Positions 7,097-26,685 of a stretch of 31,313 nucleotides of DNA are shown piece by piece. Source of the stretch: a virus; the IMG/VR virus record IMGVR_UViG_3300040801_006073, positions 1-31,313 of that record; one strand, written 5' to 3'. The notes under the pieces were generated by a model. That model was not told where the DNA came from and searched no databases. It saw only the letters and a program-made list of their open reading frames with translations. Made by a program: the position numbers and the translations under genes. Within the stretch, counting starts at the first letter, position 1. Every line of letters starts with the position of its first letter.

Positions 7097-7326
7097 TACA
7101 ATTACCACAATCACACAAAAGAAAAATGGCAGGAGCACAAAAGCTCATACTCGCACTCTTTGAAGAATACCGACGAACAAAGAAAAAGGTTCTTCTCGAA
7201 GATATTCAAAAAATTGTAAATCAGATTGGCATTCCATTTGCTATGAGAATACAGCCGGAAGGAGAAGAGAGACGGCCATACACAATGGAATTTAGACCAC
7301 AACTTGAAGAAAGCAAAAAGAGGTGA
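7093..7326 (+). CDS. Small hypothetical protein upstream of portal
   Basis: A 77-aa basic protein of unknown function with a helical middle ('LILALFEEYRRTKKKVLLEDIQKIV'). It starts in an ATGA overlap with the zinc-ribbon gene and ends immediately before the -10 box of the portal promoter; the promoter -35 lies in its last codons. It is the last gene of the early/packaging transcription unit. Confidence 0.6.
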   Translation: MIQLPQSHKRKMAGAQKLILALFEEYRRTKKKVLLEDIQKIVNQIGIPFAMRIQPEGEERRPYTMEFRPQLEESKKR

Positions 7327-7332
7327 TAGTAT
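7304..7332 (+). promoter_or_regulatory. Late-type promoter A (portal unit)
   Basis: A -35 TTGAAG at 7304-7309, a 17-nt spacer and a -10 TAGTAT at 7327-7332. Six nt later AACAATTTA begins at 7339, where transcription should start. The same 6-nt gap and 9-mer occur at four other promoters in the window, which is the main support. Confidence 0.75.
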
Positions 7333-7338
7333 AAGAGT

Positions 7339-7408
7339 AACAATTTACTTGAGTTTACGGACTCGCAGGTGTCAATCTATGGATTGCGCTCGCGAGTCCT
7401 TTTTGTTT
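7339..7408 (+). promoter_or_regulatory. Leader element A with mutually exclusive hairpins
   Basis: After AACAATTTA (7339-7347) comes a small hairpin GAGT-TTACGG-ACTC (7351-7364). A larger stem, GGACTCGC (7359-7366) with GCGAGTCC (7392-7399), encloses an inner CAATC/GATTG hairpin with a TATG loop and runs into TTTTTGTTT (7400-7408). The large hairpin looks like an intrinsic terminator and ends 2 nt before the portal ATG at 7411. The 3' arm of the small hairpin lies within the terminator 5' arm, so the two cannot form together. Confidence 0.75.
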
Positions 7409-7410
7409 AT

Positions 7411-9546
7411 ATGAATATTTTTCAAAAGATTTTTCGTGGAGTAAAAGAGACGGGAAAAAAGTTTTCCAGTATTCAAGATATTCGACTCTCTCGTTATCCG
7501 TTTCAAACGGGGAGAATTACCGGAGTAAGTGAGACAACAAGCAATCCCTCTCACGGATATACTGGTTGGGCGGCGTGGGCAATTTCGAAGAAATTTGAGG
7601 CATTGTCCTCTATTGAATTTAGGGAGTATCGAATGAATCAAAAAGGAGAGGTGGAAGAAGTGACTCAAAGTAACATAATATCTCTTCTCTATAAACCGAA
7701 TGACCGAATGACGAAAGGGATGTTTTTTTCGTATTTGTCGCTTTTTCTCGATGTGTGGGGGCGATGTCCCATACACATTGACCGAAACACAAATGGAAGT
7801 ATCGCTAATCTCTTTCCTGTTCGCCCGGATCTTCTCAAGGCCATATATGAAAATGATATACTTACTCGATATGAATTTCGTGTAGGATCGCGAGTGGCCA
7901 CTTTTCAAAAAGATGAAATCATAGACATATTCATACCTTCTCCCACTGATATGACCAAACCAGGAATATCACCGCTTCAAAAAGCTGGAATCGAAGTAGA
8001 TACAGACCTTACAGCCTCTCTTTGGAATCTTGGACTTTTGCAAAATAAAGCAGAGCCGGATGGAGTGCTTGAGACGGATCAGGAACTTACGGATGAGCAA
8101 TTTGAAAGACTCAAAACGGCGTGGTATGCGAGACACTCAAGCCCGGGGAACGCGGCGATTTTGGAAGCAGGTCTCAAATGGAAACCAACACAAAAAGATC
8201 ATAAGGAAATCCAATACAGAGAAACGCGAAAAGACGCAAGGGATAGTATTCTCACACTCCTTGATGTGCCGAAGGGATTGTATTTGAGTGATGATGTAAA
8301 TCTTTCAAATTCTGAAACGGCCTATAAAGCATTTCTCACGCTTACGATAGAACCGAGAATGAAGTTTCTAGAAGAGCATTTAAATGAATTTTTGGTGCCG
8401 TATTTTGACGAGGATGGATGGATCGAACATACTCCTCCTGTTTCGGATGACAGAGAAAAGACTGTTGATGAACTTCATAAACTCACCAATCTCGTCTATA
8501 CGGTAAATGAGTCACGAGAAAGACAAAATCTCCCTCCTATCGAAGGAGGTGATGTCTTGTATGTTTCTATGAGAGGATCTGTCGCAGGGGAAGACGAAGA
8601 TGAAGAAGAGGAAGAAAAAAGGCTGGAGATAAAGGCGATAAAAAAGGTCGGGTATGTCAAGAATGCTTCTCTCATTCGCTCAAAGATTCTTGCGCGAAAA
8701 AGAAAGCGTATTGCCATTACTCTTATGAGGAAAAAGATTGCTGAGAATGTGGAAAAACGTTTAATGGGAGGAGGAAAAAAGGTGTATACAATGGTAAATT
8801 CTAAAAAAAAAGACTATTCTGAGAAATTGAAAGCGGAGAGGAAGCAATATCTTAAAATTGCGGAAAATCGTGAAAAAAAATTCAAGAGGAGGCTTCAGGA
8901 GTTTTTTATGGAGCAGAAAAAGGCGATTCTTAAAAATCTGAAAGAAAAAAAGGACATAAAAGTGGATGATATTACTTCCGGAGCAGAGAATGAGGAAGGG
9001 CTGAAAAAAATATTTTTGGAAAGCTATCGGGAAAATATCAAAGACGGTGTCAGTGCTATTGCGATGCTACTCGGATCTGATGAAGTGAATGTGTTTGGAA
9101 GAGCAACGGTCAAATCATTTCTCGCGACGATGCCACAGAGATTTGCACGAAAAGTAAACGAAACGACATTTACTGCCATTAAAGACACCCTTTCAGAGGG
9201 AGTTGAGGTTGGGGAAACTATCGAAAAACTTCGTGATCGTATATCGGATGTATACGCAGAAGCTTCAAAGTCAAGAGCGGAGGCAATCGCAAGAACGGAA
9301 GTGGGAAGAGCTCAAAATATGGCACGGTTGGAAGAAATGAAAGCACTCGGGGCAGAAAAAAGAGTGTGGATGGCCGTATTCCGTAATACTCGGGAGTCGC
9401 ATAAAAATCTTGATGGAAAAGTGATAGGAATAGAGGAGAAATTCGATGTAGGAGGATATAAAGCACATTTTCCGAATGATCCGAGTCTTCCGGCACACGA
9501 ATCAGTTAATTGTCAGTGTAGTGTCGCCCCGGTTGTTGACGATTGA
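7411..9546 (+). CDS. Portal protein fused to Mu F-like head morphogenesis domain
   Basis: A 711-aa protein. Residues about 1-385 match HK97-type portals ('SNIISLLYKPNDRMTKGMFF', 'GISPLQKAG', 'LLDVPKGLYLSDDVNLSNSE', 'RQNLPPIEGGD'), which form the dodecameric DNA channel at one capsid vertex. A very acidic linker (GEDEDEEEEE, about 393) and a long Lys-rich helical region follow. Residues about 540-711 match the Mu F/SPP1 gp7 minor-head family, with 'AEAIARTEVGRAQNMAR' and 'VNCQCSVAPV'. These are usually separate adjacent genes; here they are one frame. I chose ATG 7411 because the in-frame GTG at 7369 would translate through the leader hairpin. Confidence 0.9.
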   Translation: MNIFQKIFRGVKETGKKFSSIQDIRLSRYPFQTGRITGVSETTSNPSHGYTGWAAWAISKKFEALSSIEFREYRMNQKGEVEEVTQSNIISLLYKPNDRMTKGMFFSYLSLFLDVWGRCPIHIDRNTNGSIANLFPVRPDLLKAIYENDILTRYEFRVGSRVATFQKDEIIDIFIPSPTDMTKPGISPLQKAGIEVDTDLTASLWNLGLLQNKAEPDGVLETDQELTDEQFERLKTAWYARHSSPGNAAILEAGLKWKPTQKDHKEIQYRETRKDARDSILTLLDVPKGLYLSDDVNLSNSETAYKAFLTLTIEPRMKFLEEHLNEFLVPYFDEDGWIEHTPPVSDDREKTVDELHKLTNLVYTVNESRERQNLPPIEGGDVLYVSMRGSVAGEDEDEEEEEKRLEIKAIKKVGYVKNASLIRSKILARKRKRIAITLMRKKIAENVEKRLMGGGKKVYTMVNSKKKDYSEKLKAERKQYLKIAENREKKFKRRLQEFFMEQKKAILKNLKEKKDIKVDDITSGAENEEGLKKIFLESYRENIKDGVSAIAMLLGSDEVNVFGRATVKSFLATMPQRFARKVNETTFTAIKDTLSEGVEVGETIEKLRDRISDVYAEASKSRAEAIARTEVGRAQNMARLEEMKALGAEKRVWMAVFRNTRESHKNLDGKVIGIEEKFDVGGYKAHFPNDPSLPAHESVNCQCSVAPVVDD

Positions 9547-9563
9547 TACGGGTGTGCTATACT
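9536..9563 (+). promoter_or_regulatory. Late-type promoter B (host-recognition unit)
   Basis: A -35 TTGACG at 9536-9541 (inside the last codons of the portal gene), a 16-nt spacer and a -10 TATACT at 9558-9563, then 6 nt to AACAATTTA at 9570. It is the best match to sigma70 among the five related late promoters. Confidence 0.8.
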
Positions 9564-9569
9564 AAAAAC

Positions 9570-9643
9570 AACAATTTAAATTGAGTTTACGGACTCTCAG
9601 CTAAGCATTTACGAATGCATACGGCTGGGAGCCGTTTTTTTTT
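9570..9643 (+). promoter_or_regulatory. Leader element B
   Basis: AACAATTTA at 9570-9578, then the same 14-nt hairpin as in leader A, GAGT-TTACGG-ACTC (9583-9596). The large stem pairs GG + CTCTCAGC (9591-9601, one bulged A) with GCTGGGAG + CC (9624-9633). The inner hairpin is GCATT/AATGC with a TACG loop. Nine T residues follow (9635-9643), making this the most terminator-like copy. The next ATG is 23 nt further on, a longer gap than at the other copies. Confidence 0.75.
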
Positions 9644-9666: not shown

Positions 9667-9864
9667 ATGGAAAATCAAGAACCCCTCGTATCAATGTATG
9701 ACCCTAACGTTGATGCATATAGGCAAGTAAAACTTTCACTTGCAAGAAAATTTGTTGAAAATGTTGAATCATTGGTCAAGCAAATTGAAGAAAAAGAGAC
9801 AGAAATTGCAAAGGAAAAAGCGTATCAAGAATCTCTCGCAACGAAGATGCCAAAGCAAGAATAA
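9667..9864 (+). CDS. Small coiled-coil protein
   Basis: A 65-aa protein, helical from about residue 20 on. I do not recognise a family. Its C-terminus, ESLATKMPK-QE, repeats nine residues found in the prohead protease (residues about 45-53), and the DNA agrees at 24 of 27 bases (9829-9855 versus 15154-15180). It is the first gene after leader B. A scaffold or assembly role is possible but unsupported. Confidence 0.6.
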   Translation: MENQEPLVSMYDPNVDAYRQVKLSLARKFVENVESLVKQIEEKETEIAKEKAYQESLATKMPKQE

Positions 9865-9880
9865 TTAAAAAAATAGTTAT

Positions 9881-10372
9881 ATGAACACACAAAAAGAACG
9901 TGGCAACTGGCAAGCCAAATGGAAAATCGAAAAGTTTGCCAGTGAAGAGGCTAAGAGAAAAGGGGAAGTATTTGAGGTAAAAGAATTTGCCCCAAACCTT
10001 CTTGTAAACGGAGGAATCAATGCCTTGTTTACTCTTCTTGCAGGAGGAGGGGGAACGGGCTTTGACAATGCAAATTCTTATATTGGTGTTGGTGATAGCA
10101 ATACCGCCGAAAGTGCGAGTCAGACAGACCTTCAAGCATCAACAAACAAGTTGCGAAAGGGTATGAATAGCGGGTATCCTACCTATGGAACAAACCAAAA
10201 AATGGTGTTCCAGGCGGACTTCGGTTCATCTGACGCAAATTATGACTGGAATGAGTTTGCGGTATTCAATGCTTCTACAGGAGGAACAATGCTCAACAGA
10301 AAAGTATCTTCACAAGGAACAAAAGCATCAGGGCAGACTTGGACACTTACGCTTGAAATTACGCTTTCATAG
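9881..10372 (+). CDS. Phage structural protein of unknown role
   Basis: A 163-aa protein: a charged N-terminal 35 residues, then a beta-rich, Gly/Asn/Ser/Thr-rich part ('NLLVNGGINALFTLLAGGGG', 'SYIGVGDSNTAESASQTDL', 'DWNEFAVFNAS', 'TLTLEITL'). This resembles a family of small virion proteins seen near tail or fibre genes; I infer a surface or fibre-attachment role. It starts behind A/T-rich sequence without an SD. A terminator-like hairpin follows the gene, so transcription may drop before the propeller gene. Confidence 0.65.
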   Translation: MNTQKERGNWQAKWKIEKFASEEAKRKGEVFEVKEFAPNLLVNGGINALFTLLAGGGGTGFDNANSYIGVGDSNTAESASQTDLQASTNKLRKGMNSGYPTYGTNQKMVFQADFGSSDANYDWNEFAVFNASTGGTMLNRKVSSQGTKASGQTWTLTLEITLS

Positions 10373-10395
10373 AATGTTTTAGTAAAGTAAAAATG

Positions 10396-10425
10396 ACAAG
10401 CCCTGCTTTTTAGTGGGGCTTGTTT
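10396..10425 (+). terminator. Intrinsic terminator-like hairpin
   Basis: An 8-bp GC-rich stem, ACAAGCCC (10396-10403) with GGGCTTGT (10416-10423), a 12-nt loop, then TTTAATAA. The U-run is short, so termination may be partial. It separates the 163-aa structural gene from the propeller gene, for which no clear new promoter is visible. Confidence 0.6.
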
Positions 10426-10435
10426 AATAAGAATT

Positions 10436-11515
10436 ATGGCATACGAATTAACAGAATTAGATGAGCTTGTTTTTGACGCTATAGCAGAAGAGTCATCATT
10501 GGTCGCAATAGACCCGACTCATTTTGCTGTTGCCTATTATGGAAGTGCTGGCGGTGTTATAAAAACATTTTCAATAGACGGTAGTTATAATATAACAGAA
10601 ATTGATAGCTTGACACACGATGTTAGCTCTTCAGCAAACTCTTTAATAAAAATCGACTCTAGTCATCTTATGCTTTCTGCAATGTGTGGAGGTGATAATT
10701 TTATAAAAATATTCTCAATAGACGGTAGTTATAATATAACAGAAATTAAAAGTTTCGCACACAGTACAACAACAGGTAAAGCAACTTCACTTGTAATGAT
10801 AGATTCAACTCATTTTATGTTGGCGTTTAGTGGGGGTGATTGTATTATAAAGACCTTTTCTATAGATGAATTGTACAATATTACTCAAATTGATGCTTTA
10901 ACTTTTGATACTGGGTATGGTTACAGTGCTTCGTTAGTAAAGATAGACTCTACACATTTTATGCTAGCTATTGATAATGGGGATGCTACAATAAAAACCT
11001 TTTCGATAGATGGCAGTTATTCAAATATAACAGAAATCGATAGCTTTATTCACGACTCTGGAGATGGTGGAGACGAGTCTTTAGTCGTAATTGACTCAAC
11101 TCATTTTATTCTTATTTATAAGGGTTATGGTAGTGATGGTTTTATAAAAACATTTTCAATAGACGGTAGTTATAATATAACAGAAATTGATAGCTTGGAG
11201 TACGATAATTCAATTGGTATTTTTGGGTCTTTGGTAAAATTATCTGATACTACTTTTTTAGCGACTTATCGAGGGGATGGAAGTAATGTTAAAATGTTTT
11301 CAATAAATGAAAGCTATGAAATTACGGTAATCGGATCAGGCGTTTTCACTAACACAATAGATGGAAAGTCTTCATTGGTAATGATAAACCCGACAAATTT
11401 CATTGTCGCATATGACATTGGTGAAGAAAATGGAAGGATTAAAACATTTTCTTTTATTGATACAGTTGAAATGATTGGATTAGAAGAAATAAATTCAGAA
11501 TATAGTTATTTTTAG
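10436..11515 (+). CDS. Seven-bladed beta-propeller repeat protein, probable host-recognition
   Basis: A 359-aa protein made of about seven 48-50-residue repeats with the pattern 'SLVxIDSTHFMLA...IKTFSIDGSYNITEIDSL'. The FSI core recurs seven times, and the N-terminal strand 'ELTELDELVFD' matches the tail of a repeat, as expected for velcro closure of a propeller. No catalytic motif is visible, so binding to a surface ligand is the natural guess. Codons here are more A/T-rich than in the capsid genes, suggesting separate acquisition. The last residues (EYSYF) lead 1 nt before the fibre gene. Confidence 0.75.
   Translation: MAYELTELDELVFDAIAEESSLVAIDPTHFAVAYYGSAGGVIKTFSIDGSYNITEIDSLTHDVSSSANSLIKIDSSHLMLSAMCGGDNFIKIFSIDGSYNITEIKSFAHSTTTGKATSLVMIDSTHFMLAFSGGDCIIKTFSIDELYNITQIDALTFDTGYGYSASLVKIDSTHFMLAIDNGDATIKTFSIDGSYSNITEIDSFIHDSGDGGDESLVVIDSTHFILIYKGYGSDGFIKTFSIDGSYNITEIDSLEYDNSIGIFGSLVKLSDTTFLATYRGDGSNVKMFSINESYEITVIGSGVFTNTIDGKSSLVMINPTNFIVAYDIGEENGRIKTFSFIDTVEMIGLEEINSEYSYF
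10557..10612 (+). repeat. 56-bp direct repeat, copy 1 (propeller gene)
   Basis: A perfect 56-nt match to 11142-11197, 585 bp (195 codons) away and in the same reading frame, so it encodes the same propeller strand pair in blades about four units apart. Identity at DNA level in an otherwise diverged repeat suggests recent gene conversion or unequal crossover. Confidence 0.85.
11142..11197 (+). repeat. 56-bp direct repeat, copy 2 (propeller gene)
   Basis: The second copy of the repeat at 10557-10612, identical over 56 nt and in the same frame. Confidence 0.85.
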
Positions 11516-11516
11516 T

Positions 11517-14500
11517 ATGGCTTTCTCTGGCACTATATCTAATACAAAAATGTTTGTTAACGGGATAGAAAGCCCGTCTTATGAATGTGAGATTGGTGAC
11601 ACTGTAAAATTTCAATTAGAGGCATCGGCTATAGCTGGAGTTGATAGAATACAGATATGGGTTAGAGAAGAACCATATGACGGTAGCACGATAACTTCTG
11701 GAGAGTATACATTGGTATCTGGAGATATATACAATGGAGTTTACGAATTTGAATTTGTCGTCCCAGCACAGTACACAGACTTGACTGATATAAAAATTGG
11801 ATTGGACGGAAATTATTATAACATAATACCGTATGACAATAATGGAGACTCCAACATCGGATGGAAGGAGACTTTCACTGTAAATGAAATTACGGTAGCA
11901 ATATCAAACTTAGACGGAAAAGTTGCAATGCTTAAGGGTACCCTTCCTCTTAACCTCAATCAAAATCCAGCAGGGGCTTTATCGTGGAATGTTTCGCAGA
12001 GCTACAATGACAGTATTTTTAGCTGGAGCAGTGGAGAGGATACAAGGCTGGAGATATTGGAGGCAGGTGATTATATTCTTACAGCAAACATTCCGCAAAA
12101 TTCTTCAATACAGAGGTCGAACATTTTAGTTTATGTTTATGTGAATGGTTCCAAGGTAGACGTCGGACAGGGAGCGAGTGCATACATAAGAAACGGGAGT
12201 AACCACACAGAAAGCAGTGCTTATATCTCTGCTTTTTTGCAGGGATTATCCGTTAATGATTATGTTGAGATATTCGTAGAGATTGAGGGGGCTTCTGGAA
12301 CATTAAACGCAGAAACGCATACTTTATATGTAGAAAAAGTTGATGATAAAGTTGTCTTTTCTGCAAGAGGTACGGAGACCATAGCTGGGACAGATATAAA
12401 CCAGGCGTCCGATTTCAAATGGGAGACAGAAGACAGAAAAGATTCTGGATACACACACTCAACATCCGTTGACCCGAATGAGATAACATTAGATGAAGCT
12501 GGAAATTATTTAGTTCTCCTTACGATTCCGGAAACAAGTTCTGTATTAAGAAGTAATGCTGGAGCGAGAATCCAGTTAGATGGTACTACGGTTGGAGAGG
12601 CGAAACAGGGATATATTCGCAACAGTGAACAGGAAAACTCATCAATACATTATGCTGGAGTTGTTCAGTCTTCGAGTCCGAATCAAGTTCTTAGTGTATT
12701 AATGTCGATTGACGGAGAAACGGGAATTGTCACAGTTCCAACTGGGACAAGTGGTAACATTGTTATTATAAAGCTACCAGACAATAAGGTATATTATGGA
12801 AAGGCAACTCAAGTGGGGGGATCTGATGAGTGGGCTCCAAGTACTGAATCGGACGTAAATTGGGCAACTGATGAGATTATAGATACCTCTATATATACGC
12901 ATTCCACATCCTCAAACAATCACCAGATTACGGTTAAAGAAGATGGTGATTACTTCTTTACTTTCAATGTTGGTTTGAGCAGTGTTAGTGCTAGAGCAAA
13001 CACTAGGATTAAGATTTATGTAAATGATATAGAGCAAGAAGGTTTTCAAGCGAAACACGCTTATATAAGAAATTCTAGTGGACACAATGACAGCTCATTG
13101 GTTACGAGTGGTTTATTAGACGGGTTGTCTATTGATGATGTTATAACAGTGACAGCTCAAGTTGAGTCTATTACTGGAATTGATGATACGACACCAGCAG
13201 AGTTACTGTTGGTGAAAAAAGAGGCTGTAGTAGTAGTCTCTATATCAGAATCAGGCTCTGGAAGTGAAATAATCCAAAAAACTCAATCGGCATCTTTGGT
13301 AGACGTAGAAGAAGTAGGTTCCGGAGCGGAAGACATTATTGCAGAAACGGGTTTCATCCTTACACAAAGTGGAAGCCTTGTAGAAGTTTGGGAGCTTTAC
13401 AAACCAAGAGAGGCAATATTGAAAGAAGAAGGACAAGCAAAAGAAGTTTCTGATGAGGGAATATCTGGAAGTGAAGTTTTCGCCAAAGCAACATCATACA
13501 TAGGAGAGAGCGGAATAAGTTCCGACATTGTATCATTTCTAGCGTCTATCACTTTAGATGAACAAGGGACTTTGAGCGATATCTTGGAGGCTTCCAACGT
13601 CTTTGTCCTTTTGGAACAAGGAGTAGGAGCCGAAGAGATACAGGAGAAGATAGAAACACTTCTTGTAGAAAGCGGAATCGGAAGTGAAGAGATAGTCTTT
13701 GGCATAGTTGTTCCATTATTGGATACGGGTGAAGGTGATGAGCAGTTTTCTCTATCAAATATTTTTGAAATTGTTGACATAGGAGAAGGAGGGGAGGCAT
13801 TAAACGGAAAAAATGTTTTTGTATTACAAGATAGCGGAGAAGGAGATGAAAATATTTCGATCATTTTTAGTAATCTCGTTCTCGGCGAAGATATAAACGG
13901 AGGAGAGAATATCACTCTTTCAGCTATGGCGTTTATATCGGAAGGTGGGGTGACACAGGAGAATCTATCTAAACAAGTAAGCGCATTTTTATCTGAAATT
14001 GTGATAGGAAGTGATAGTGCAGATGTCCGCGCTCTTTTGGAGGCGTCTGAAGAAGGAAATTTGAGTGATCTCTTGTCTATAATGCTACAGACGCCTATTG
14101 TAGATGAAGGGATTGGGGCTGATTCAATCCTTACAAAAGCCCTAGCGCAAGTACTTGAGGAAGGATCCGGAGATGAGCTTATTAAAGCTCTTGTAAGTAT
14201 TGGAGTACTTGATGATGCAGTTTTTTCTGATAAAGAAACTATTCGGGTGTATGTAACAGAGAAAGAGGAGGGTGTATCTGAAGATTCTTTCTCTATATCA
14301 ACAGAAGCTTCCGTAGAGGACAGTGGTGATGCGGAGGAAACATTAAGAAAGGCATACGTCGTAAAAGATTCAGGAGAAGGAGAGGATGAGTCCTTATTGG
14401 CTGTATTTTACATTAAAAAAGCAACTCTCAAAAATGGATATGGCGGTACTATTCGCGTAATGGCCCATAAAAAGTATTTTTCCCTCAAAGGAATGAAAAG

Positions 14501-14576: not shown

Positions 14577-14581
14577 GCAAT

Positions 14582-14899: not shown

Positions 14900-14929
14900 T
14901 TGACGGTGATTTGATGTTTGTGGTAGTAT
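14900..14929 (+). promoter_or_regulatory. Late-type promoter C (capsid unit)
   Basis: A -35 TTGACG at 14900-14905, an 18-nt spacer and a -10 TAGTAT at 14924-14929, then 6 nt to AACAATTTA at 14936. It starts one base after the preceding stop codon. Confidence 0.75.
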
Positions 14930-14935
14930 AAAAAT

Positions 14936-15975: not shown

Positions 15976-15996
15976 TTGGTCGGTAAATGTAAAAAT

Positions 15997-17148: not shown

Positions 17149-17181
17149 GAAAGAGATGCTATAACAAGTAATAATATAAAT

Positions 17182-17331: not shown

Positions 17332-17343
17332 TCATTCTTTGAT

Positions 17344-18715: not shown

Positions 18716-19263
18716 TCGTTAATCTATCAGAACTAAAAACCTATCTCGGGATTGAATCAGTAGCGGAACAAGAGGTTCTCAAGCAGTGTCTGCGATATGG
18801 AGAGGCTTTTGTTTCCGGATATATCGGAAAGGCACTGGAAGAAGCGACATTTACAGAATATTTCGACGGGGGAAACCCTTCTGTGCTTCTCAAAAATACT
18901 CCTATTTCTTCCATAACAAGCGTCCAGGAGAATGCAGGAACACAAGAAAACCCGGACTGGGAAACGGTCGACGGAGATGAATATTTTTCTGATCTTACGG
19001 CTGGTGTTATCCGGCATGAAACGGCATTTACGAAAGGAATTGGCAATGTAAAGGTGGTATATGTCGGAGGGTATACGCAATCGACGCTTCCGTCTGACCT
19101 CGGAATGGTGATTGTTGAAATCGCTTCTATGATTTATAAAAGAAGACGCTCGCAAGGAATAAAAAGCGAATCAATATCCGGAGGAGGGAGCATTGACTGG
19201 GCGGAAAACCTTCTCACTTATCAAAAAAATATTCTCAGTAGATATAGATCTCTTCGCGTATGA
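18712..19263 (+). CDS. Head-tail connector, gp6-like
   Basis: A 183-aa protein with the typical adaptor opening 'SELKTYLGIESVAEQEVLKQ' and 'YGEAFVSGYIGKALEE', then a beta region ('VLLKNTPISSITSVQENAG', 'GNVKVVYVGGYT') and 'PSDLGMVIVEIASMIYKRRR'. This is the helical adaptor that docks under the portal. It is coupled by ATGA overlaps on both sides. Confidence 0.85.
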   Translation: MIVNLSELKTYLGIESVAEQEVLKQCLRYGEAFVSGYIGKALEEATFTEYFDGGNPSVLLKNTPISSITSVQENAGTQENPDWETVDGDEYFSDLTAGVIRHETAFTKGIGNVKVVYVGGYTQSTLPSDLGMVIVEIASMIYKRRRSQGIKSESISGGGSIDWAENLLTYQKNILSRYRSLRV

Positions 19264-19562
19264 ATGCAACATTTGATAGACATTTTACAACAAAAAGACT
19301 CCTCTCGACGGCCAATAAGTCAAGCTATATCGATGCTTCAAGCGGAGTAGGTCATCTCAGGCAGATGAGCGAAAGACTCGAAAAAATAAACTCGATACAA
19401 TATGGCCAAGGATGGGAACTCTTCGTAGAGTATGATACGGACATCGTGGCGACGGATAGAGTGATTGTGGACGGAGAAAATTATGATGTGCGAGGAGTAA
19501 GAGAGGAAAATTTCAACTCCATTCGGTTTAAAAAATGTGCTCTTGTTAAAGAAAAAACATAG
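19260..19562 (+). CDS. Head-tail joining / head closure protein
   Basis: A 100-aa beta-rich protein in the position of the stopper (SPP1 gp16/HK97 gp7-like). The segment 'ATDRVIVDGENYDVRGVREE' matches the family pattern of a strand-turn 'D.v.idG..Y.V..v'. It would seal the channel below the connector after packaging. It begins in an ATGA overlap. Confidence 0.72.
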   Translation: MNATFDRHFTTKRLLSTANKSSYIDASSGVGHLRQMSERLEKINSIQYGQGWELFVEYDTDIVATDRVIVDGENYDVRGVREENFNSIRFKKCALVKEKT

Positions 19563-19565
19563 TGT

Positions 19566-19979
19566 ATGTGGCTAACCCTTATTAATAAAATCCAAGAGAA
19601 ACTGAAAGCGCACACGGGAGAAGGTGAACCTCTTGTGGAAGTGTTTCCTTCTCATAAAACAAAGTTCTCCGGGTATCCATCGGCTACATTTGAACCATCG
19701 GAAAAAGATGAAGATTTCAGGACGAATGTAGAGAATGGTGCAGAATACACTTTTGAGATAGTGATTCATCAAGAAGTGGAAAATACCGGGCTTGAGAATG
19801 CTATACGGATTCTTGCCTCTGTCATATCTGATATTGAGGCGGATTTCCGAGAAGATTATCTCTTGGGCGGTACGGTTCGATTGGTTCGCCCTGTGGGAAG
19901 TCAGTGGGGGGAATATGCAGAATCAGTCGGATGGGTAAAATATGCGACACTTAAACTCATAATTGAAGTAGATGTATGA
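19566..19979 (+). CDS. Tail terminator/completion protein
   Basis: A 137-aa protein in the slot of the tail-terminator (gp17/gpU-like): N-terminal helix 'WLTLINKIQEKLKAHTG', 'YPSATFEPSEKDED', 'EYTFEIVIHQEVE', and a final strand pair. The start is 3 nt after the previous stop. Assignment combines size, order and the pattern. Confidence 0.7.
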   Translation: MWLTLINKIQEKLKAHTGEGEPLVEVFPSHKTKFSGYPSATFEPSEKDEDFRTNVENGAEYTFEIVIHQEVENTGLENAIRILASVISDIEADFREDYLLGGTVRLVRPVGSQWGEYAESVGWVKYATLKLIIEVDV

Positions 19980-20119
19980 TGAAAAATATGGAAAATAAGG
20001 CTCTTAGGCCAAAGAAAAATAAACAGGTGTTTTTTTATCCGGATTACGGAATATCCGTGGAAGCGGAAAGTCGAGAGGAGGCGGATAAAAAAGTACTTGC
20101 CAAGAAAAAGAAAAAATAG
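19976..20119 (+). CDS. Very small Lys-rich protein before tail-tube unit
   Basis: A 47-aa protein (MMKNMENKALRPKK...) with a central 'QVFFYPDYGISVEAESREEA' and a Lys-rich end. In-frame ATGs lie at 19976, 19979 and 19988; the first two overlap the previous stop. It resembles tiny proteins often found between tail terminator and tube genes. The -35 of promoter D lies within its last codons. Confidence 0.6.
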   Translation: MMKNMENKALRPKKNKQVFFYPDYGISVEAESREEADKKVLAKKKKK

Positions 20120-20125
20120 TATTAT
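20097..20125 (+). promoter_or_regulatory. Late-type promoter D (tail unit)
   Basis: A -35 TTGCCA at 20097-20102, a 17-nt spacer and a -10 TATTAT at 20120-20125, then 6 nt to AACAATTTA at 20132. Confidence 0.75.
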
Positions 20126-20131
20126 ACACAT

Positions 20132-20206
20132 AACAATTTAAATGGACTTACGGGTCCCGATATTCGATTGAGCGTATGCGCTCCGGATGTCGGGGCTTTT
20201 TGTTTT
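20132..20206 (+). promoter_or_regulatory. Leader element D
   Basis: AACAATTTA at 20132-20140. The small hairpin is GGAC-TTACGG-GTCC (20144-20157), a fully different stem around the same loop as in A and B. The large stem has 13 continuous pairs (20154-20166 with 20184-20196, including G-U), an inner AGCG/CGCT hairpin with TATG loop, then TTTTTGTTTT. The tail-tube ATG is 8 nt further on, at 20215. Confidence 0.78.
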
Positions 20207-20214: not shown

Positions 20215-21183
20215 ATGCTCGGAAAAAAATATGCAATAGGTATCGCGAAAGAGGGAACTCGAGGAACTGGAGAAGCTTCTCCTGATGTGTGGATCCCTAT
20301 GGTGGAACCGGCTTTCATTAATCCAATGAAAGAATATATCCAAAATGAATCAAACTACGGTGTGATCGTGGATTCGGTGGATGCTGTTATTGATAAAGAA
20401 TGGGCAGAGCTTGAAATTCCAAAATATATCGCCGGAGATAAAACTATTGGATACTTTTTGCTCGGGGCTTTGGGACAAGTTTCCTCCGAAATCAAAGAAA
20501 CAACTGCGTATGAACACACTTTTAGCCTTCTCGGTAATTCCGACAAGCATCAATCTTTTACTCTTGAAATGAAAAATGACCTTGAACAATTGAAACACGC
20601 TCTCGGGATGTTTAAGTCTGTGAAGCTCTCCGGTGCCAAGGGTCAATATTTGGAAGTCTCAGCATCTCTTTCGGCAAAGAAGGGTACAAGTTCATCTAAT
20701 ACACCTTCTTACGCACAGGAGAATAATTTTTTTTCAAAAATGATTACTTTCAAGCACGCGTCTAACCTGGCAGGTCTTTCGGGTGCGTCAAATTCAGAAA
20801 TTGCCTCTTTTGAACTCTCTCTTGATAAGGACGTAGAAGAACTTTTCGTTCTTGGAAGTACGGAACCAACAGAAATCGTCAATAAAACTTTCTCAGTGGA
20901 ACTTAATCTAGAGGGGTATTTTGATGCGACGACACTCAAGGATCTATATGAAGCAGGAACAGAACAGGCGGTAGAGATTGACATCCTCTCTCCGGTAACC
21001 ATAGGAGCTTCAAGCAATCCTCGAATCACGATAAAACTCGCGAAATGTCATATAGAAGAATGGAGTCCTTCCGGAGGAATGGGAGACCAAATCAAGCAAA
21101 CAATGAGACTCAAAGGAAAATACAGCATATCGGAAAGTTCTATCGGATCGGTTGTGGTGGTAAATGAGCAGGAAAGTTACTAG
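20215..21183 (+). CDS. Major tail (tube) protein
   Basis: A 322-aa protein with the look of the phage tail-tube family: 'YAIGIAKEGTRGTGEASPDVW' at the start, several beta-strand repeats ('SFTLEMKNDLEQLKHALGMF', 'FSVELNLEGYFD'), and a C-terminal 'QIKQTMRLKGKYS'. It stacks in rings to form the tail tube. It follows leader D and precedes the tail chaperones, as expected, though a reverse-strand insertion interrupts this order. ATG 20176 is in frame but lies inside the leader hairpin. Confidence 0.85.
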   Translation: MLGKKYAIGIAKEGTRGTGEASPDVWIPMVEPAFINPMKEYIQNESNYGVIVDSVDAVIDKEWAELEIPKYIAGDKTIGYFLLGALGQVSSEIKETTAYEHTFSLLGNSDKHQSFTLEMKNDLEQLKHALGMFKSVKLSGAKGQYLEVSASLSAKKGTSSSNTPSYAQENNFFSKMITFKHASNLAGLSGASNSEIASFELSLDKDVEELFVLGSTEPTEIVNKTFSVELNLEGYFDATTLKDLYEAGTEQAVEIDILSPVTIGASSNPRITIKLAKCHIEEWSPSGGMGDQIKQTMRLKGKYSISESSIGSVVVVNEQESY

Positions 21184-21196
21184 GTGAAAATAAAAA

Positions 21197-21238
21197 AAAC
21201 CGCCTGAAGCGACTTTGGCGAGCTACTTCAAACGGTTT
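21197..21238 (-). terminator. Intrinsic terminator of the reverse-strand genes
   Basis: Read on the minus strand, AAACCG-tt-TGAAG pairs with CTTCA-gg-CGGTTT, followed by TTTTATTTTC. It is about 175 nt beyond the stop of the reverse gene at 21412. It also lies just after the tail-tube stop, but on the + strand no U-run follows. Confidence 0.75.
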
Positions 21239-21246
21239 GAGAACCT

Positions 21247-21411
21247 ATGGACATTATAACAGAATTTATGAGATACGCAAATAATTGCTTTCCCAAAAAT
21301 CATCCGAAAAGCTGGAACGAGATGTTATTTCATTTTGTATATGGATTATTGAGAGTATTGCTGTTTCTTATTCTGTTTGGCGGATTTGTCGGGATAGTTA
21401 AGGTTCTTTGA
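21247..21411 (+). CDS. Small membrane protein
   Basis: A 54-aa protein with a polar half ('YANNCFPKNHPKSW') and one membrane helix at about residues 31-53 ('VYGLLRVLLFLILFGGFVGI'). It ends one base before the stop of the convergent gene and lies opposite that gene's 3' untranslated region. The composition is plausible for a real gene, but there is no SD. A role in lysis or exclusion is possible; I have no direct support. Confidence 0.45.
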   Translation: MDIITEFMRYANNCFPKNHPKSWNEMLFHFVYGLLRVLLFLILFGGFVGIVKVL

Positions 21412-22341
21412 TTATTTAATGTCGGGAGTATAAGTGCATCTGCAAAAAGGACGAGATTCTTTTTTATGAAGAGGTCTTGAGCAATGTTTTACGGGAAGAA
21501 GTTTTTGCTTTATGGCTTGGTCTATCGTAAGGGTTTTTTCTGAAAGCTCTTTACATGCCGGGCAACTGTCATCAGTCGCCAAAATGGAAACCCTTTTTAC
21601 CTCGGGAAAGTCTTTTTTGAGAGAGTGAAGTTCCATCTCGCTTGACTTTTGCAAGAGAGTGTTAGGATCCTTTCCTTGGTCATAAACGGTAATTGCCATT
21701 GTGTAATACAAAGAACTTAGATCTCCATACGAAGATTTTTTGATGAGTTCATTGGCAATAAAATTATAGATTGACCATTGAACATCCTTGAAAGAAAAGT
21801 TCTTTTCTCGAAGCATTTTGATTTCTTGAGAAATTCGATTTCGTGAAAGAGAAAATCTATCCGCTATATCAGGAAGAGATTCCCAATTTCTTTCTTCTCG
21901 GATAGCAAGAACATCCTCTTCTTTCATAAGATATTTTTGTTTCAGTGGATCGTCCTCGGAATATTCTATGTATACCGTTTCTTTGCAAGAAGGGCATTTC
22001 CGTTTTCGTTTCGGTTCAGTGGGAAATTCCACTTGACAGTATGGGCAAAGATAAGGAGGTATAAGGGGTTTAGGTGGTGTGTATGGCGGATATTCAAATT
22101 TAATGGGAGCATCGTCTGTGACTGAGAATGAGAATTTTTCCTCTTCTTTAGGAGTTTTTAGGAGGTATTTGGCAATATTGAAAAATACTGCAAAAACTAT
22201 CATAGATATAATCAAATGAGAAAAAAGCTCAAAGATATTAGAGGAAAGAATGATGTACAAGATATATAAGAACGAGAAGAAGGTTGTAGCACAAGAAAAT
22301 ACAAATAGGCCTACGGATGGAGAAGTTGATTGAGAGGACAT
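21412..22341 (-). CDS. Reverse-strand membrane zinc protein (probable moron)
   Basis: A 309-aa protein on the opposite strand to the tail operon. Residues about 10-75 hold two membrane segments. At about 100-125 a zinc ribbon follows (CPYC...CPSC), then a Lys/Glu-rich helical part with an HTH-like 'LPDIADRFSLSRNRISQEIK'. A C-terminal part has 'DDSCPACKELSEKTLTIDQA' and 'RPFCRCTYTPD', which resembles the Cys/His end of Mu F-like proteins. ATG 22341 is preferred to the in-frame start at 22419, which overlaps the upstream gene. Orientation and own terminator suggest prophage-stage expression. Confidence 0.7.
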   Translation of the reverse strand: MSSQSTSPSVGLFVFSCATTFFSFLYILYIILSSNIFELFSHLIISMIVFAVFFNIAKYLLKTPKEEEKFSFSVTDDAPIKFEYPPYTPPKPLIPPYLCPYCQVEFPTEPKRKRKCPSCKETVYIEYSEDDPLKQKYLMKEEDVLAIREERNWESLPDIADRFSLSRNRISQEIKMLREKNFSFKDVQWSIYNFIANELIKKSSYGDLSSLYYTMAITVYDQGKDPNTLLQKSSEMELHSLKKDFPEVKRVSILATDDSCPACKELSEKTLTIDQAIKQKLLPVKHCSRPLHKKESRPFCRCTYTPDIK

Positions 22342-22348
22342 AGTTATT

Positions 22349-22510
22349 TTACCCCTTAAAAGTAAATCCACAATCTTTGCATTTGTGATGCTTTGGGAGA
22401 AGAAGGAGAAGGAGACCAAGAGGAAAAAGAAGAATAACGAATACCCAAATCCAAATACTACGACTTGATTTGGTTTTCTGACTTTTACAAGAGGAGCAAG
22501 AGAGTTTCAT
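22349..22510 (-). CDS. Tiny membrane zinc-ribbon protein
   Basis: A 53-aa protein: CSSC at residues 5-8, one membrane helix (about 20-38, 'IWVFVILLFPLGLLLLLLP'), and CKDC at 44-47. The Cys pairs flank the helix, as in LITAF-like or small zinc-ribbon membrane proteins. It ends 7 nt before the 309-aa gene on the same strand, which shares the zinc ribbon plus membrane design, so the two probably form an operon and may act together. Confidence 0.65.
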   Translation of the reverse strand: MKLSCSSCKSQKTKSSRSIWIWVFVILLFPLGLLLLLLPKHHKCKDCGFTFKG

Positions 22511-22539
22511 AGGCAATAATTTATTAAATTTATATTTTA

Positions 22540-22568
22540 AGAGTAATCCCCTAACATAATAAAGTCAA
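22540..22568 (-). promoter_or_regulatory. Possible promoter of the reverse-strand operon
   Basis: On the minus strand, TTGACT (22563-22568), a 17-nt spacer and TACTCT (22540-22545) lie 30 nt before the ATG at 22510. The -35 is good and the -10 weak. It falls in the short gap between the reverse operon and the tail chaperone gene. Confidence 0.35.
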
Positions 22569-22574
22569 ATATAT

Positions 22575-22868
22575 ATGGAAAAGCCAAAAAAAGAAATTCA
22601 ATCACCAAGAGGTGTCAAATTTGAGATATTTGAATATATAACAGGAAGAGATATTAAAAAGGTGTCTGAAGTGGTGTCTCAACAAGGGAGGGGAAAATCC
22701 ATTGATGCAATGATTGAGATAGGCCTTATATCTATAGAAGGATCTAATGAGAATCTATCTGAGAGACTCTTAGATCTTCACGGAGAAGATTATGTTTTTA
22801 TAATTCAGAAAATATCAAATCTTTTTAATATAGGGCAAGAAAAAAAAACAGAAGAATCTATGAGATGA
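22575..22868 (+). CDS. Tail assembly chaperone, upstream frame (gpG-like)
   Basis: A 97-aa protein directly before the tape measure, the place of gpG-type chaperones. It opens with 'PRGVKFEIFEYITGRDIKKV', matching the usual 'itGrD' motif, and has a helical remainder. It coats the tape-measure protein during tail assembly. Nine A residues near its 3' end and an open downstream -1 frame point to a programmed frameshift yielding a longer fusion. Confidence 0.82.
   Translation: MEKPKKEIQSPRGVKFEIFEYITGRDIKKVSEVVSQQGRGKSIDAMIEIGLISIEGSNENLSERLLDLHGEDYVFIIQKISNLFNIGQEKKTEESMR
22841..22847 (+). promoter_or_regulatory. Probable -1 frameshift slippery site
   Basis: A-AAA-AAA in exactly the phase required for -1 slippage of the gpG frame, inside a run of nine A (22840-22848). 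The -1 frame is open from here through the downstream ORF start at 22865, with no stop between. Confidence 0.75.
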
Positions 22869-23044
22869 GAAAAATGATCTCCGGGAGCAAAGGAAATGCT
22901 GATGAAATGATGAAGGCAATGTTTGTCTGCAAGTTTATGGGATGGGATTATCATACTTATCTCAATCAACCTTGGGAGTTTATTGATGTAATACTTAGTT
23001 ATATGCAGGTTGAAAACGAATATTTACAGAAAAATAAAAGATAA
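22865..23044 (+). CDS. Tail assembly chaperone, frameshift extension (gpT-like)
   Basis: A 59-aa open frame in -1 phase to gpG that starts in an ATGA overlap (22865-22868) and ends just before the tape measure gene. The residues ('MMKAMFVCKFMGWDYHTYLN', 'PWEFIDVILSYMQVENEY') resemble the T part of G-T chaperones. It is probably made mainly as a fusion to gpG through the A-run; separate initiation at the ATG is the alternative. Confidence 0.75.
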   Translation: MRKMISGSKGNADEMMKAMFVCKFMGWDYHTYLNQPWEFIDVILSYMQVENEYLQKNKR

Positions 23045-23046
23045 AT

Positions 23047-24654
23047 ATGGCGACAAAAAGTAATCTACAAATAGTCATAGACGCAAAGAACAATGCTACG
23101 GGGACACTCTCAAAACTCGAAGGAAGTGTTGATGCTGTCTATTCGAAACTAAAACTCATGGCGACTGTTGCAGGAACTGCATTTGCTGGATTTTCAACAC
23201 TAGGACTAAAAATGGCGGGTGATTTTGAGTCCGCTGAAGCTGGTTTCAGAGCAATCCTTGGAAGTGCGGAAAAAGCAAGTGCAACAATGGAAAGAATCAA
23301 AGCTGAGGCGGCCGCAACACCTTTTGAACTTAAGGGGCTCACAGAAGGAACTCAAGCTTTGGCTTCAATAACAAAAGATGGGGATAGTGCTATCGACACA
23401 CTTCTTGATGTTGGAAAAGCAATAGCAACATCTGGAAAAGGACAAGCTGAGCTTGATCGCGTGATAATGAATCTCCAACAAGTAGCATCCACCGGAAAAG
23501 TTACTGAAATGGATATACGACAATTTCAAGGGGCAATTCCTATTTTTAACGATATTCTTGAGGCTTCAAACTTAACGACAGAAGAACTCAAGGAAAGTGA
23601 AAACTCAGCGACTCTTCTCTTTGATGCATTTAAAAAAGCTGGTGAGGCTGGCGGAATAACCGCTGGAGGATTTACAGAACAGGCAGGGACTCTGAATCAG
23701 TTATACAGCAATGCGAAGGATACAGTGGCAATATTTAGCACTGAATTTGTAAAACAAACTGGCCTTTTTGATCTTGCAAAAAAAGCTTTTGAAAACTTTT
23801 CTAATTTTATTATGGAAAATAAAGACTCCATAATAAATTTTGCAAACTCCCTTGGAGATGGGATAAAAAATATCATTGATACCATAATCACAATGAAGGA
23901 CAATATAATGCAAGTAGTTGAAGTTATTTGGGAGTTTGTTGAACCTTCTTTCTTAAGTATGAAAGAAACTCTTATTGAATCATGGCAAAGAATAATGGAA
24001 GCTATTGACCCAATTAAGCCGGAACTGGAATTTATAGCAAAACTTTTTGGCGTGATAATAGTTGGAGCAATTATTGTTTTTGCAAATACCCTCGCAAAGG
24101 TTATCGAGATAGTTTCAAACTTAATAACGGGGTTTATTGAGATGTTTTCCGGCGCAATTGAATATATTTCTGAGGTTTATCAGGGATTTTTTCATCTCAT
24201 AAAAGGAGAAAACGATCTTGCTGTACAAGCATTCAAAGATGCCTGGGAAGGGCTCAAAACATTTTTTAAGGGGCTTTTTTCTACAATTTATGGTGTTGTC
24301 AGGCCATTGATTGAACCTATTATTGAAATGATTAATGCTGTGATCTCTGGATACAATAAAATCCCAGGAGTAGGCGATATAAACAAAATAGAAATCCCCA
24401 ACAGTGGTGGAGCTCGTGCCGTGGGCGGATCAGTAATGATGGGTCGTCCGTATATGGTGGGAGAGCGCGGGCCGGAGATGTTTGTGCCCTCTCAATCAGG
24501 AAGAATTGAAAACAGTCCTTCGGGAGGTTCGACGGTGCATATTGTGAATAACTGGGACTTCCGTGGTATGGTCGGGGATCCGGAAGAATTCAAAAAAACC
24601 GTCATTGATGAAATAAACAGGAAACAAGAACTCTACGCATTGGGGGCAATGTAG
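23047..24654 (+). CDS. Tail tape measure protein
   Basis: A 535-aa protein. Its N-terminus ('NLQIVIDAKNNATGTLSKLE', 'FAGFSTLGLKMAGDFESAEA') and 'TPFELKGLTEGTQALAS' match the tape-measure family. Hydrophobic stretches lie at about 335-375, and the C-terminus has 'GRPYMVGERGPEMFVPSQSG'. The protein sets tail length and forms the DNA exit route. From the usual 0.15 nm per residue the tail would be near 80 nm, on the short side for siphophages. Confidence 0.9.
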   Translation: MATKSNLQIVIDAKNNATGTLSKLEGSVDAVYSKLKLMATVAGTAFAGFSTLGLKMAGDFESAEAGFRAILGSAEKASATMERIKAEAAATPFELKGLTEGTQALASITKDGDSAIDTLLDVGKAIATSGKGQAELDRVIMNLQQVASTGKVTEMDIRQFQGAIPIFNDILEASNLTTEELKESENSATLLFDAFKKAGEAGGITAGGFTEQAGTLNQLYSNAKDTVAIFSTEFVKQTGLFDLAKKAFENFSNFIMENKDSIINFANSLGDGIKNIIDTIITMKDNIMQVVEVIWEFVEPSFLSMKETLIESWQRIMEAIDPIKPELEFIAKLFGVIIVGAIIVFANTLAKVIEIVSNLITGFIEMFSGAIEYISEVYQGFFHLIKGENDLAVQAFKDAWEGLKTFFKGLFSTIYGVVRPLIEPIIEMINAVISGYNKIPGVGDINKIEIPNSGGARAVGGSVMMGRPYMVGERGPEMFVPSQSGRIENSPSGGSTVHIVNNWDFRGMVGDPEEFKKTVIDEINRKQELYALGAM

Positions 24655-24658
24655 CTTT

Positions 24659-25417
24659 ATGATTGATATATTTTTTGATAATGAAAATCTCAACGACACA
24701 CCATATCATGTGGTGGATTTTGGTCATGAGAGTGTCGCAGATAAAAGATTGAATAATTATGAGCTCGCTCGCTCTCGTGGGGTGGTTATGGTGAGTACGG
24801 GAAGGAGCGCTAAACGAATAGAAGTAAGAGGATTTATCCAAGGAGCTTCTGTGGGGGATCTTGATTCTCATATCGACGGACTTTTTGAGATTTTGGAAAG
24901 AGAAGGGAAAAATTTGGACATTTCGTATGCAGGAGGAACGAGAAGATATAAAAATGCGTACGCAGAGACGACACGGCTCACCAAGAGACATCCTACTATG
25001 GCAGAGTGGTCAGCGGTGTTTGTGGTGCCTTCAGGAGTGGGACAGGCGACTTCTCAGACAAGCGTGGATGTGGAAAATGTAACTGATGATGTGTATGAGG
25101 GGTCAATAGCTATCGCAGGGACGGCGTACCCTCTTCCTACGGTAACGATTGTATTTGATTCAAATACTGCCGGAGAAACGATTGAGTTGCTTCTTAATGG
25201 AAATAAGATAACGATTAATAAGGGATCAGCGTTTTCAGTCTCCGATGAGGTTATTTTGGACTTTCAAGCGCAAAAAGTGACGCTAAATGGAACGGAAATA
25301 GAATATCAGGGAGTATTCCCTCGGTGGGAGATAGGGACGAATGAGTATTCTCTTACACTGGATGGAACGGCTCGGCAGTATGATGTGAATATTTCGTATT
25401 TTCCAATGTATCTATGA
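24659..25417 (+). CDS. Distal tail protein (Dit-like)
   Basis: A 252-aa protein after the tape measure, where Dit lies in Gram-positive-type siphophages. Residues 1-130 follow the N-terminal Dit domain ('YHVVDFGHESVADKRLNN', 'GRSAKRIEVRGFIQGASVGD', 'LDSHIDGLFEILEREGKNLD'). The second half is a beta-sandwich with 'YPLPTVTIVFDSNTAGETIE'. It forms the ring joining tube to tip. The ATG at 24659 follows the tape stop by 4 nt, and the end overlaps the next gene by 4 nt. Confidence 0.78.
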   Translation: MIDIFFDNENLNDTPYHVVDFGHESVADKRLNNYELARSRGVVMVSTGRSAKRIEVRGFIQGASVGDLDSHIDGLFEILEREGKNLDISYAGGTRRYKNAYAETTRLTKRHPTMAEWSAVFVVPSGVGQATSQTSVDVENVTDDVYEGSIAIAGTAYPLPTVTIVFDSNTAGETIELLLNGNKITINKGSAFSVSDEVILDFQAQKVTLNGTEIEYQGVFPRWEIGTNEYSLTLDGTARQYDVNISYFPMYL

Positions 25418-26595
25418 AACGATTTTTTGCCAAAGTGTATGACGGAGCTTCCTTCGTGGGCACGTGGAGTGACGTGGCTTCTGTTGTTTCGTTTTCTTCG
25501 GAAATGAACAGTGGACTCTCTCCGCTTACTCTACGACTTGCCCGGGGAGAAAATGACTTCGGGGAAAATCTCGATGTTAAACTTGGAAATTATGTGAGGG
25601 CATATTGCGCTGACAAAGACAGTGAGGAGGGAGTATTGGTATATTCCGGGTATATTTCTCGGTATATTCCCCTTGTGGATGGGACAACGGAATATGTAGA
25701 AGTTACGCTCTTGTCTTTTTGGGAACAATTGGCTCGGATGATTCTCGAATCTTCGGGAGATACTGAAGTAGCTTATCTCTCAGAGGATCCTTCTGATATT
25801 CTCAAGGATCTTCTTGATAAATTTACGGCCAATGGAGGAGTACTTGATTATGGGGTGAGTTCTGTGGAAGTGACGGGATCGACAGTTTCGTATACTTACA
25901 ATACCAATACTTATCAAGAGGCGCTCAAAAAAGTGATTGAGTTGTGTCCGGATGATTGGTTTTTTCGTGTGGGAGCGGATGATTTGATTTATCTTTCTGA
26001 GAAGTCAGAGACGGCCGAACACCTCTTCCGGATGAATGATCATATACTTCTCTATAAGCCGGAAAAAAGGACGGAGAATATGGTCAACGAGATATATTTT
26101 CGTGGAGGGGGAACTCTCTATAAAAAGTATGTCGCAAGTGGCTCGGTATCTACGTATGGGCATTTTGCCAAGAAAATCGTGGATGAGCGAATAACAGTAG
26201 GTGCTACTATGGATCTTATTGCCAATCGCACACTTAATGCATTGAGCGAACCGGAGATTCGAATAACTCTGAAAATTCTTGATAATAATAATGGAGGGGG
26301 AAAGGGGTATGACATTGAGTCAATTAAGGTGGGAGACACGTGTAAGATTCTCGGAGTGACTGAAAAAGGGAATAATGTATGGGATGAATTGGTATGGGAT
26401 ACGGATTCGTGGGATTATGATATAGCCAATGCATCAGCTACTGTACTTCAAATACAAAAGATAGAATATCACCCAGACTATGTAATACTCGAAATATCCA
26501 ATCGTCAGCCCGACATCGCAAAAAGAATTGAGGATATAAACAGGAATCTTGTCGCCTCTCAGACGGCGGACAACCCCTCGACACCATCAACATAA
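25414..26595 (+). CDS. Tail tip / baseplate hub protein
   Basis: A 393-aa protein after Dit. It begins 'FFAKVYDGASFVGTWSDVAS' and includes 'GNYVRAYCADKDSEEGVLVY', 'YQEALKKVIELCPDDWFFRV' and 'ENMVNEIYFRGGG', the pattern of hub/Tal-like tail proteins built from gp27-like barrel domains. The C-terminal end is a flexible Ser/Thr/Pro tail. No lysin domain is evident. The -35 of promoter E lies in its final codons. Confidence 0.72.
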   Translation: MKRFFAKVYDGASFVGTWSDVASVVSFSSEMNSGLSPLTLRLARGENDFGENLDVKLGNYVRAYCADKDSEEGVLVYSGYISRYIPLVDGTTEYVEVTLLSFWEQLARMILESSGDTEVAYLSEDPSDILKDLLDKFTANGGVLDYGVSSVEVTGSTVSYTYNTNTYQEALKKVIELCPDDWFFRVGADDLIYLSEKSETAEHLFRMNDHILLYKPEKRTENMVNEIYFRGGGTLYKKYVASGSVSTYGHFAKKIVDERITVGATMDLIANRTLNALSEPEIRITLKILDNNNGGGKGYDIESIKVGDTCKILGVTEKGNNVWDELVWDTDSWDYDIANASATVLQIQKIEYHPDYVILEISNRQPDIAKRIEDINRNLVASQTADNPSTPST

Positions 26596-26606
26596 AGTGA
26601 TAGGAT
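26578..26606 (+). promoter_or_regulatory. Late-type promoter E (fibre/lysis unit)
   Basis: A -35 TCGACA at 26578-26583, a 17-nt spacer and a -10 TAGGAT at 26601-26606, then 6 nt to AACAATTTA at 26613. It is the weakest match of the five to sigma70 consensus but has the same layout. Confidence 0.65.
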
Positions 26607-26612
26607 AAAGAC

Positions 26613-26685
26613 AACAATTTAATGGACTTACGGGTCCCGAATCGCAAATGCCTATGGGTAAAGCGACTCGGGGCTTTTTGTTTTT
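26613..26685 (+). promoter_or_regulatory. Leader element E
   Basis: AACAATTTA at 26613-26621, then GGAC-TTACGG-GTCC (26624-26637) as in D. The large stem pairs GTCCCGA (26634-26640) with TCGGGGC (26668-26674), continues after one mismatch as TCGC/GCGA, and has an inner TGCC/GGTA hairpin with a TATG loop. The U-run TTTTTGTTTTT runs directly into the ATG at 26686 with no gap at all. Confidence 0.75.

Follow-up and report, generated by a model that had tools for sequence, protein, structure and literature searches.

The window considered here, meaning the whole stretch of DNA that was analyzed, corresponds to a complete virus record of IMG/VR (IMGVR_UViG_3300040801_006073; 31,313 nt). Its genes follow the order of a temperate tailed phage, comprising replication and early functions, terminase, portal, a host-recognition-type block, protease, capsid and connectors, tail, fiber and lysis, and integrase (Table 1). 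A CAP/YkwD-domain protein of secreted type is encoded just 5' of the terminase genes. The unit that follows the portal gene was assigned a putative role in host recognition from its position and its repeats; one of its proteins is built of 144-nt (48-aa) repeats, and the 1019-aa protein encoded after it is repeat-rich and without family. The capsid unit includes a Stealth_CR2-like protein (phrog_7999, E 7e-45, with a Pfam match below cut-off) that is glycan-phosphotransferase-like and unexpected among head genes. Within the tail unit a gene for a 335-aa protein lies on the opposite strand. Its product has a stretch resembling a zinc ribbon, and visual inspection suggests a likeness of its C-terminus to SPP1 gp7/Mu-F-type proteins; the gene looks like an inserted moron. 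Between lysin and integrase a perfect sigma70 promoter (TTGACA-17-TATAAT, 12/12) precedes a highly structured RNA of about 170 nt (z -7.2, -60.6 kcal/mol) with a long stem and a terminal U-run. This is a candidate phage small RNA with no Rfam match nearby, and two successive terminator-type hairpins lie past it (AAAAAGCCTACCGC...; GAGGCTC...GAGCCTC TTTTTT).

Shine-Dalgarno sequences are absent at almost all gene starts of the window, the starts being A/T-rich and often preceded by T at -1. Taken with the sigma70-type promoters described below, this suggests a non-model host; taken with the lack of close relatives, it suggests a host group far from those of the model phages, for which Patescibacteria would be a guess. 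A promoter of the Bacteroidota type was considered and is not found at the five sites described below, which have sigma70-type -35 and -10 hexamers.

Table 1. Positions of the five promoter-leader copies and of the surrounding genes and features in the window.
Feature	Position	Strand	-35	Spacer (nt)	-10	9-mer	Leader RNA or remarks
CAP/YkwD-domain protein	4351..4956	+
77-aa basic protein, last gene before copy 1	7093..7326	+					No family
Copy 1, portal unit	7304..7405	+	TTGAAG 7304	17	TGA + TAGTAT 7327-7332	7339-7347	H1 7351-7364 (GAGUU UACG GACUC), terminator 7359-7399, U-run 7400-7404
Portal fused to Mu-F-like/SPP1 gp7-like domain	7411..9546	+
Copy 2, host-recognition unit	9536..9643	+	TTGACG 9536	16	TATACT 9558-9563	9570-9578	H1 9583-9596 (GAGUU UACG GACUC), terminator with nine U at end
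Host-recognition-type unit (putative)	9667..14899	+					phrog_23653 protein, repeat protein, 1019-aa protein
Repeat protein	10436..11515	+
Copy 3, protease/capsid/connector unit	14900..15007	+	TTGACG 14900	18	TAGTAT 14924-14929	14936-14944	H1 14949-14962 (GAGCU CAAG GGCUC), then terminator
HK97-type protease, major capsid protein, connectors	15022..20119	+
Stealth_CR2-like protein	17385..18266	+
Copy 4, tail unit	20097..20202	+	TTGCCA 20097	17	TATTAT 20120-20125	20132-20140	H1 20144-20157 (GGACU UACG GGUCC), then terminator
Tail unit	20215..26595	+					Minor tail protein, tape measure, distal tail protein
335-aa protein, apparent moron	21412..22419	-
Copy 5, fiber/lysis unit	26578..26680	+	TCGACA 26578	17	TAGGAT 26601-26606	26613-26621	H1 26624-26637 (GGACU UACG GGUCC), then terminator
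Collar/fiber and amidase endolysin unit	26686..29457	+
Candidate small RNA with promoter	29484..29689	+
Two successive terminator-type hairpins	29890..29975	+

The late genes are divided by a promoter-leader element whose most constant part is the 9-mer AACAATTTA. Five exact matches occur in the window, all on the plus strand and all at gene junctions, compared with a mean of 1.01 and a maximum of 4 over both strands of shuffled sequence. With one mismatch allowed there is no excess (19 vs. 22 expected), and the exact copies are therefore not surrounded by a halo of degenerate ones. The 9-mer is invariant in all five copies, while the flanks on both sides have diverged. A -10 hexamer of the form TANNNT stands exactly 6 nt 5' of it in 5/5, the spacing that an earlier note on this DNA had reported; an extended -10 (TGn) is present in four copies. 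Promoters alone occur at chance level (43 vs. 41.9 and 37 vs. 36.9), and the combination of promoter and 9-mer is above chance. Given ordinary behavior of the host polymerase, transcription would start at the first A of AACAATTTA. Counted from this A to just past the first five U, the leaders measure 67-72 nt, close to the 66-74 nt proposed earlier, and the gene content agrees with the assignment of the copies, one each, to portal, host-recognition, capsid, tail, and fiber/lysis units.

A small hairpin, H1, starts 2-4 nt past the 9-mer. The earlier note had drawn it with a 6-nt loop, and it is better described as 5 bp with a tetraloop (UACG in four copies, CAAG in one) closed by a U.G pair. 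After H1 comes a long hairpin with a U-run, and the 3' arm of H1 is at the same time the base of the 5' arm of this terminator, so that the two structures are mutually exclusive in every copy. The hairpins, previously taken to be sequential, are thus alternative structures that cannot coexist in full. When growing prefixes of the leaders are folded, H1 appears first in 5/5 and is displaced only once the last terminator bases are made; forcing H1 on the complete leader costs 6-11 kcal/mol in the predicted folds of all five copies. With H1 held, the terminator is about 6 bp shorter at its base and is parted from its U-run, or is replaced by a weaker fold. The terminator folds themselves have z-scores of -3.2 to -5.7 and energies of -23 to -30 kcal/mol, to which the U-run is added. 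The terminator tip forms a further small hairpin whose stem has 5 bp, or 4 bp in copy 5, and whose loop is UAYG in 5/5; RNA in the H1 state can therefore present two similar UACG/UAYG hairpins side by side. Structure prediction and covariation agree on an antiterminator hairpin exclusive with an intrinsic terminator in all five leaders. That a dedicated multi-copy promoter-leader element is present, as had been proposed, is strongly supported; the regulatory system, which the earlier note had left undefined, would rather be of a specific type, attenuation/antitermination, since the hairpins are alternative and not sequential.

The pattern of divergence between copies follows these structures. 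Three of the five pairs of H1 show two-sided changes between copies and 25/25 cells of the alignment stay paired, a property that is lost in slid versions of the alignment used as a control. In the terminator tip all five pairs show two-sided changes while the UAYG loop is kept. An H1-like partner for the terminator arm arises in shuffled upstream sequence in 2-4% of cases per copy. Within this one genome the 9-mer has thus stayed fixed and the loops nearly so, while the stems diverged by compensatory change, which would be hard to explain without selection on pairing. Because the five copies are paralogues within one genome, only two or three independent versions of the stems underlie the covariation.

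The placement of the leaders constrains how the late genes can be transcribed. In copies 1, 2, 4, and 5 the -35 hexamer falls inside the 3'-terminal part of the upstream gene, and in copy 3 it begins one base beyond that gene; the hexamers thus start between 22 nt ahead of the gene end and 1 nt beyond it. None of the five junctions has a separate terminator 5' of the promoter; the sole terminator is the one downstream of it. The next start codon follows 5-26 nt past the leader, the portal ATG standing 5 nt past the end of the copy 1 leader. Since no terminator precedes the promoter and the start codon is so close downstream, polymerases that start at the local promoter and those coming from the upstream unit must both cross the leader terminator for the late genes to be expressed. 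A strong terminator in this position makes sense if it can be switched off, which points to regulated read-through of the late units. Start codons are also present within the leaders; those of copies 3 and 4 open frames running into the start of the downstream gene, and those of copies 1 and 5 open frames ending on an ATGA overlap with it.

The best explanation of these features, and probably the correct one, is that the five leaders are terminator/antiterminator switches opened together by a trans-acting factor. In the mechanism proposed, a housekeeping-type promoter would initiate each late unit at the first A of AACAATTTA and the nascent RNA would fold H1 first. By default the longer, stabler hairpin would displace H1 by using its 3' arm, transcription would stop at about 70 nt, and the same hairpin would also catch RNA polymerase arriving from the upstream unit. 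In the lytic phase, H1 would be held by a trans-acting factor that recognizes the 5' AACAAUUUA and/or the UAYG-type hairpins; a phage RNA-binding protein is the most likely candidate. The held H1 would strip the terminator base off the U-run, and the five late units would be read together. A sigma-dependent pause at AACAAT could give the factor time to load and is offered as a lead. Opening of the fold may also free the translation start, since the stem ends near the start codon and Shine-Dalgarno sequences are lacking. Because each block has its own promoter and the same leader, a single signal could release the entire set of late genes at once.

Among the window proteins scanned with PHROG, Pfam, and NCBIfam, none matched an N, Q, NusG/LoaP, ANTAR, or CAT-domain family. 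Small early genes without family are candidates for the factor, among them the gene for the 77-aa basic protein next to copy 1, a candidate regulator by position only. The predicted structure of this protein is a two-helix model of low confidence (pLDDT 65), and neither it nor the model of a second candidate regulator (pLDDT 35) is informative. A further step would be to see in the leaders a new class of phage antitermination, with a 9-mer and UACG hairpin at each late unit, a phage factor not previously described, a switch acting on elongation, and possibly a pause combined with capture of RNA structure; this reading is put forward tentatively.

The same anatomy has been weighed against other arrangements. 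In one resembling that of lambda Q, the 9-mer would act as DNA, a sigma pause near +16 would load a Q-type protein, the terminator would be ignored, and H1 would be secondary. If transcription starts at the 9-mer, its AACAAT occupies +1 to +6 and fits a -10-like NANNAT, and the pause-inducing -10-like element of the lambda late promoter is at precisely these positions (PMC4604602); NANNAT is the form given for HK022 put (PMC9378689), and a promoter-proximal terminator comes next in both the lambda late promoter and the phage leaders. However, a NANNAT at a given position would be expected by chance in a few per cent of cases, and the compensatory change and loop conservation of H1, as well as the conserved TTA beyond the hexamer, are left unexplained. 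With the scans also giving no match to a Q family, this arrangement is considered unlikely. As an objection to the preferred switch model, the terminators might be leaky and without regulation, promoter and partial terminator together setting fixed levels and the hairpins also stabilizing the mRNA 5' end. Competition between H1 and the terminator could by itself set a fixed leak, every leader lies directly 5' of a gene, and the scanned window proteins yielded no factor. Such attenuators would nonetheless need neither an invariant 9-mer nor conserved loops, and the terminators, at the energies given above, are strong on paper; we hold fixed leakage to be doubtful.

Each copy is a complete promoter-RNA-terminator unit and could in principle encode a small RNA of about 70 nt that functions elsewhere, the phage then having five genes for it and read-through downstream being incidental, but this is improbable for copies that occur only at the starts of late units, 5-26 nt before a start codon, where the downstream genes have no other promoter space. 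Attenuation controlled by translation, in which ribosomes at a conserved (A/T)TG at the foot of H1 would choose the fold, is very improbable, for although TTG or ATG stands there in 5/5 and several of the leaders contain a frame that is open or continues into the gene, the frames differ in length and sequence among copies, the (A/T)TG pattern follows from the pairing of H1, and there is no Shine-Dalgarno sequence.

In its logic the proposed switch resembles several known leaders. ANTAR leaders, such as those of the eut cluster (EutV) and nasF (NasR), occur several per cluster and carry two small hairpins with conserved loops, and the antiterminator shortens the terminator and parts it from its U-run (PMC3369936). 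The likeness lies in several leaders of one cluster responding together and in antitermination by an RNA-binding protein. In contrast to ANTAR targets, the phage loops (UUACGG/UCAAGG, NUAYGN) lack the residues A1 and G4, the terminator shares bases with the first hairpin and has the second as its tip, the leaders serve late genes, and no ANTAR-domain protein was matched by Pfam among the window proteins scanned. In the RAT elements of BglG, LicT, and SacY the antiterminator is likewise exclusive with the terminator (PMC3369936), but the RAT stem is interrupted by two asymmetric internal loops whereas H1 is a plain 5-bp hairpin, and the scanned proteins include none with the CAT domain of LicT/SacY systems. 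The LoaP-dependent dfn leader, in the part of its description available here, has a UNCG-tetraloop hairpin followed by a leader terminator (PMC12691694); UACG in four of the phage H1 loops (CAAG in one) and UAYG in all terminator tips recall it. The overlap of hairpin and terminator and the presence of five leaders are features of the phage not seen in that part of the LoaP description, and a LoaP-type NusG paralog was not found among the window proteins scanned. Lambda pR' with Q shares with the leaders a late promoter and a leader terminator and, if transcription starts at the 9-mer, a -10-like sequence at +1 to +6 (PMC4604602), but lambda has one such promoter and the phage five, H1 has no counterpart in pR', and no Q homologue was found in the window proteins. 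A conserved 5' single-stranded motif followed by a small hairpin recalls lambda nut. HK022 put is also an RNA of about 70 nt with two hairpins at a promoter (PMC9378689) but, unlike the phage leader, is not itself a terminator.

The boxA consensus GYTCTTTAANA (PMC5725501) is absent from the five leaders. AACAATTTA forms the 3' part of the E. coli rrn boxA region (a 36-mer found 7 times per genome, median), a resemblance that was rejected as probably coincidental, since the phage leaders lack the boxA core. Start-associated sequences of cluster K mycobacteriophages are also present in multiple copies at gene starts of one phage (PMC3203893); they are located in the non-structural half, are ribosome-site-like, and have RNA hairpins that are not supported by covariation. 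As the defining features of ANTAR, RAT, boxA, and lambdoid Q were looked for and not found, no membership in these systems is claimed. Rfam gave no family above its gathering threshold, in line with the earlier statement that no named RNA family has this pattern. In a keyword-limited literature search no phage came up that carries a leader of this kind before every late unit, a result that argues only weakly for absence.

Searches with a covariance model built on the leaders return all five copies, with E-values of 1e-10 to 1e-12, and give no further credible match among 69 other, distant virus loci (1.07 Mb) or in 24 whole virus records. The exact 9-mer with the H1 pattern has no match in IMG/VR; promoter plus 9-mer gave 22 single matches there, which were rejected, being mostly in evident coding frames and none with hairpins. 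A scan of 3.29 Mb of strand sequence for H1 overlapping a terminator returned no other match with the 9-mer before it. Occurrences of AACAATTTA near TerL in some Bacteroidota-type loci were likewise set aside, as they look like the 3' end of coding sequence. Searches of INPHARED gave no close phage, and a distant-mode BLAST with copy 1 gave short chance matches only. The best TerL relatives in IMG/VR have 43-46% identity and none carries the element; IMG/VR scans with TerL, portal, capsid, replication, and integrase proteins returned relatives of 22-46% only, or nothing, and GTDB genome scans with protease and lysin returned nothing. One distantly related virus contig, L076, has large tandem repeat arrays of 18 nt and 12 nt (989-1534 and 5200-5607). 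The element is established for one genome only, the relatives compared all being distant.

Lambdoid phages typically switch on their late genes by antitermination at one late promoter. In the phage described here the same RNA switch stands at five late modules of one genome. The kind of mechanism is a variant of known attenuation; what appears to be new is that a phage has it at each of its late units, and the RNA signature. The five diverged copies make the model directly testable with small reporters, and a defined RNA, the 9-mer with the UACG hairpin, provides a bait for the regulator. Such a switch would explain how several independent late promoters can be silent in the lysogen and fired together.
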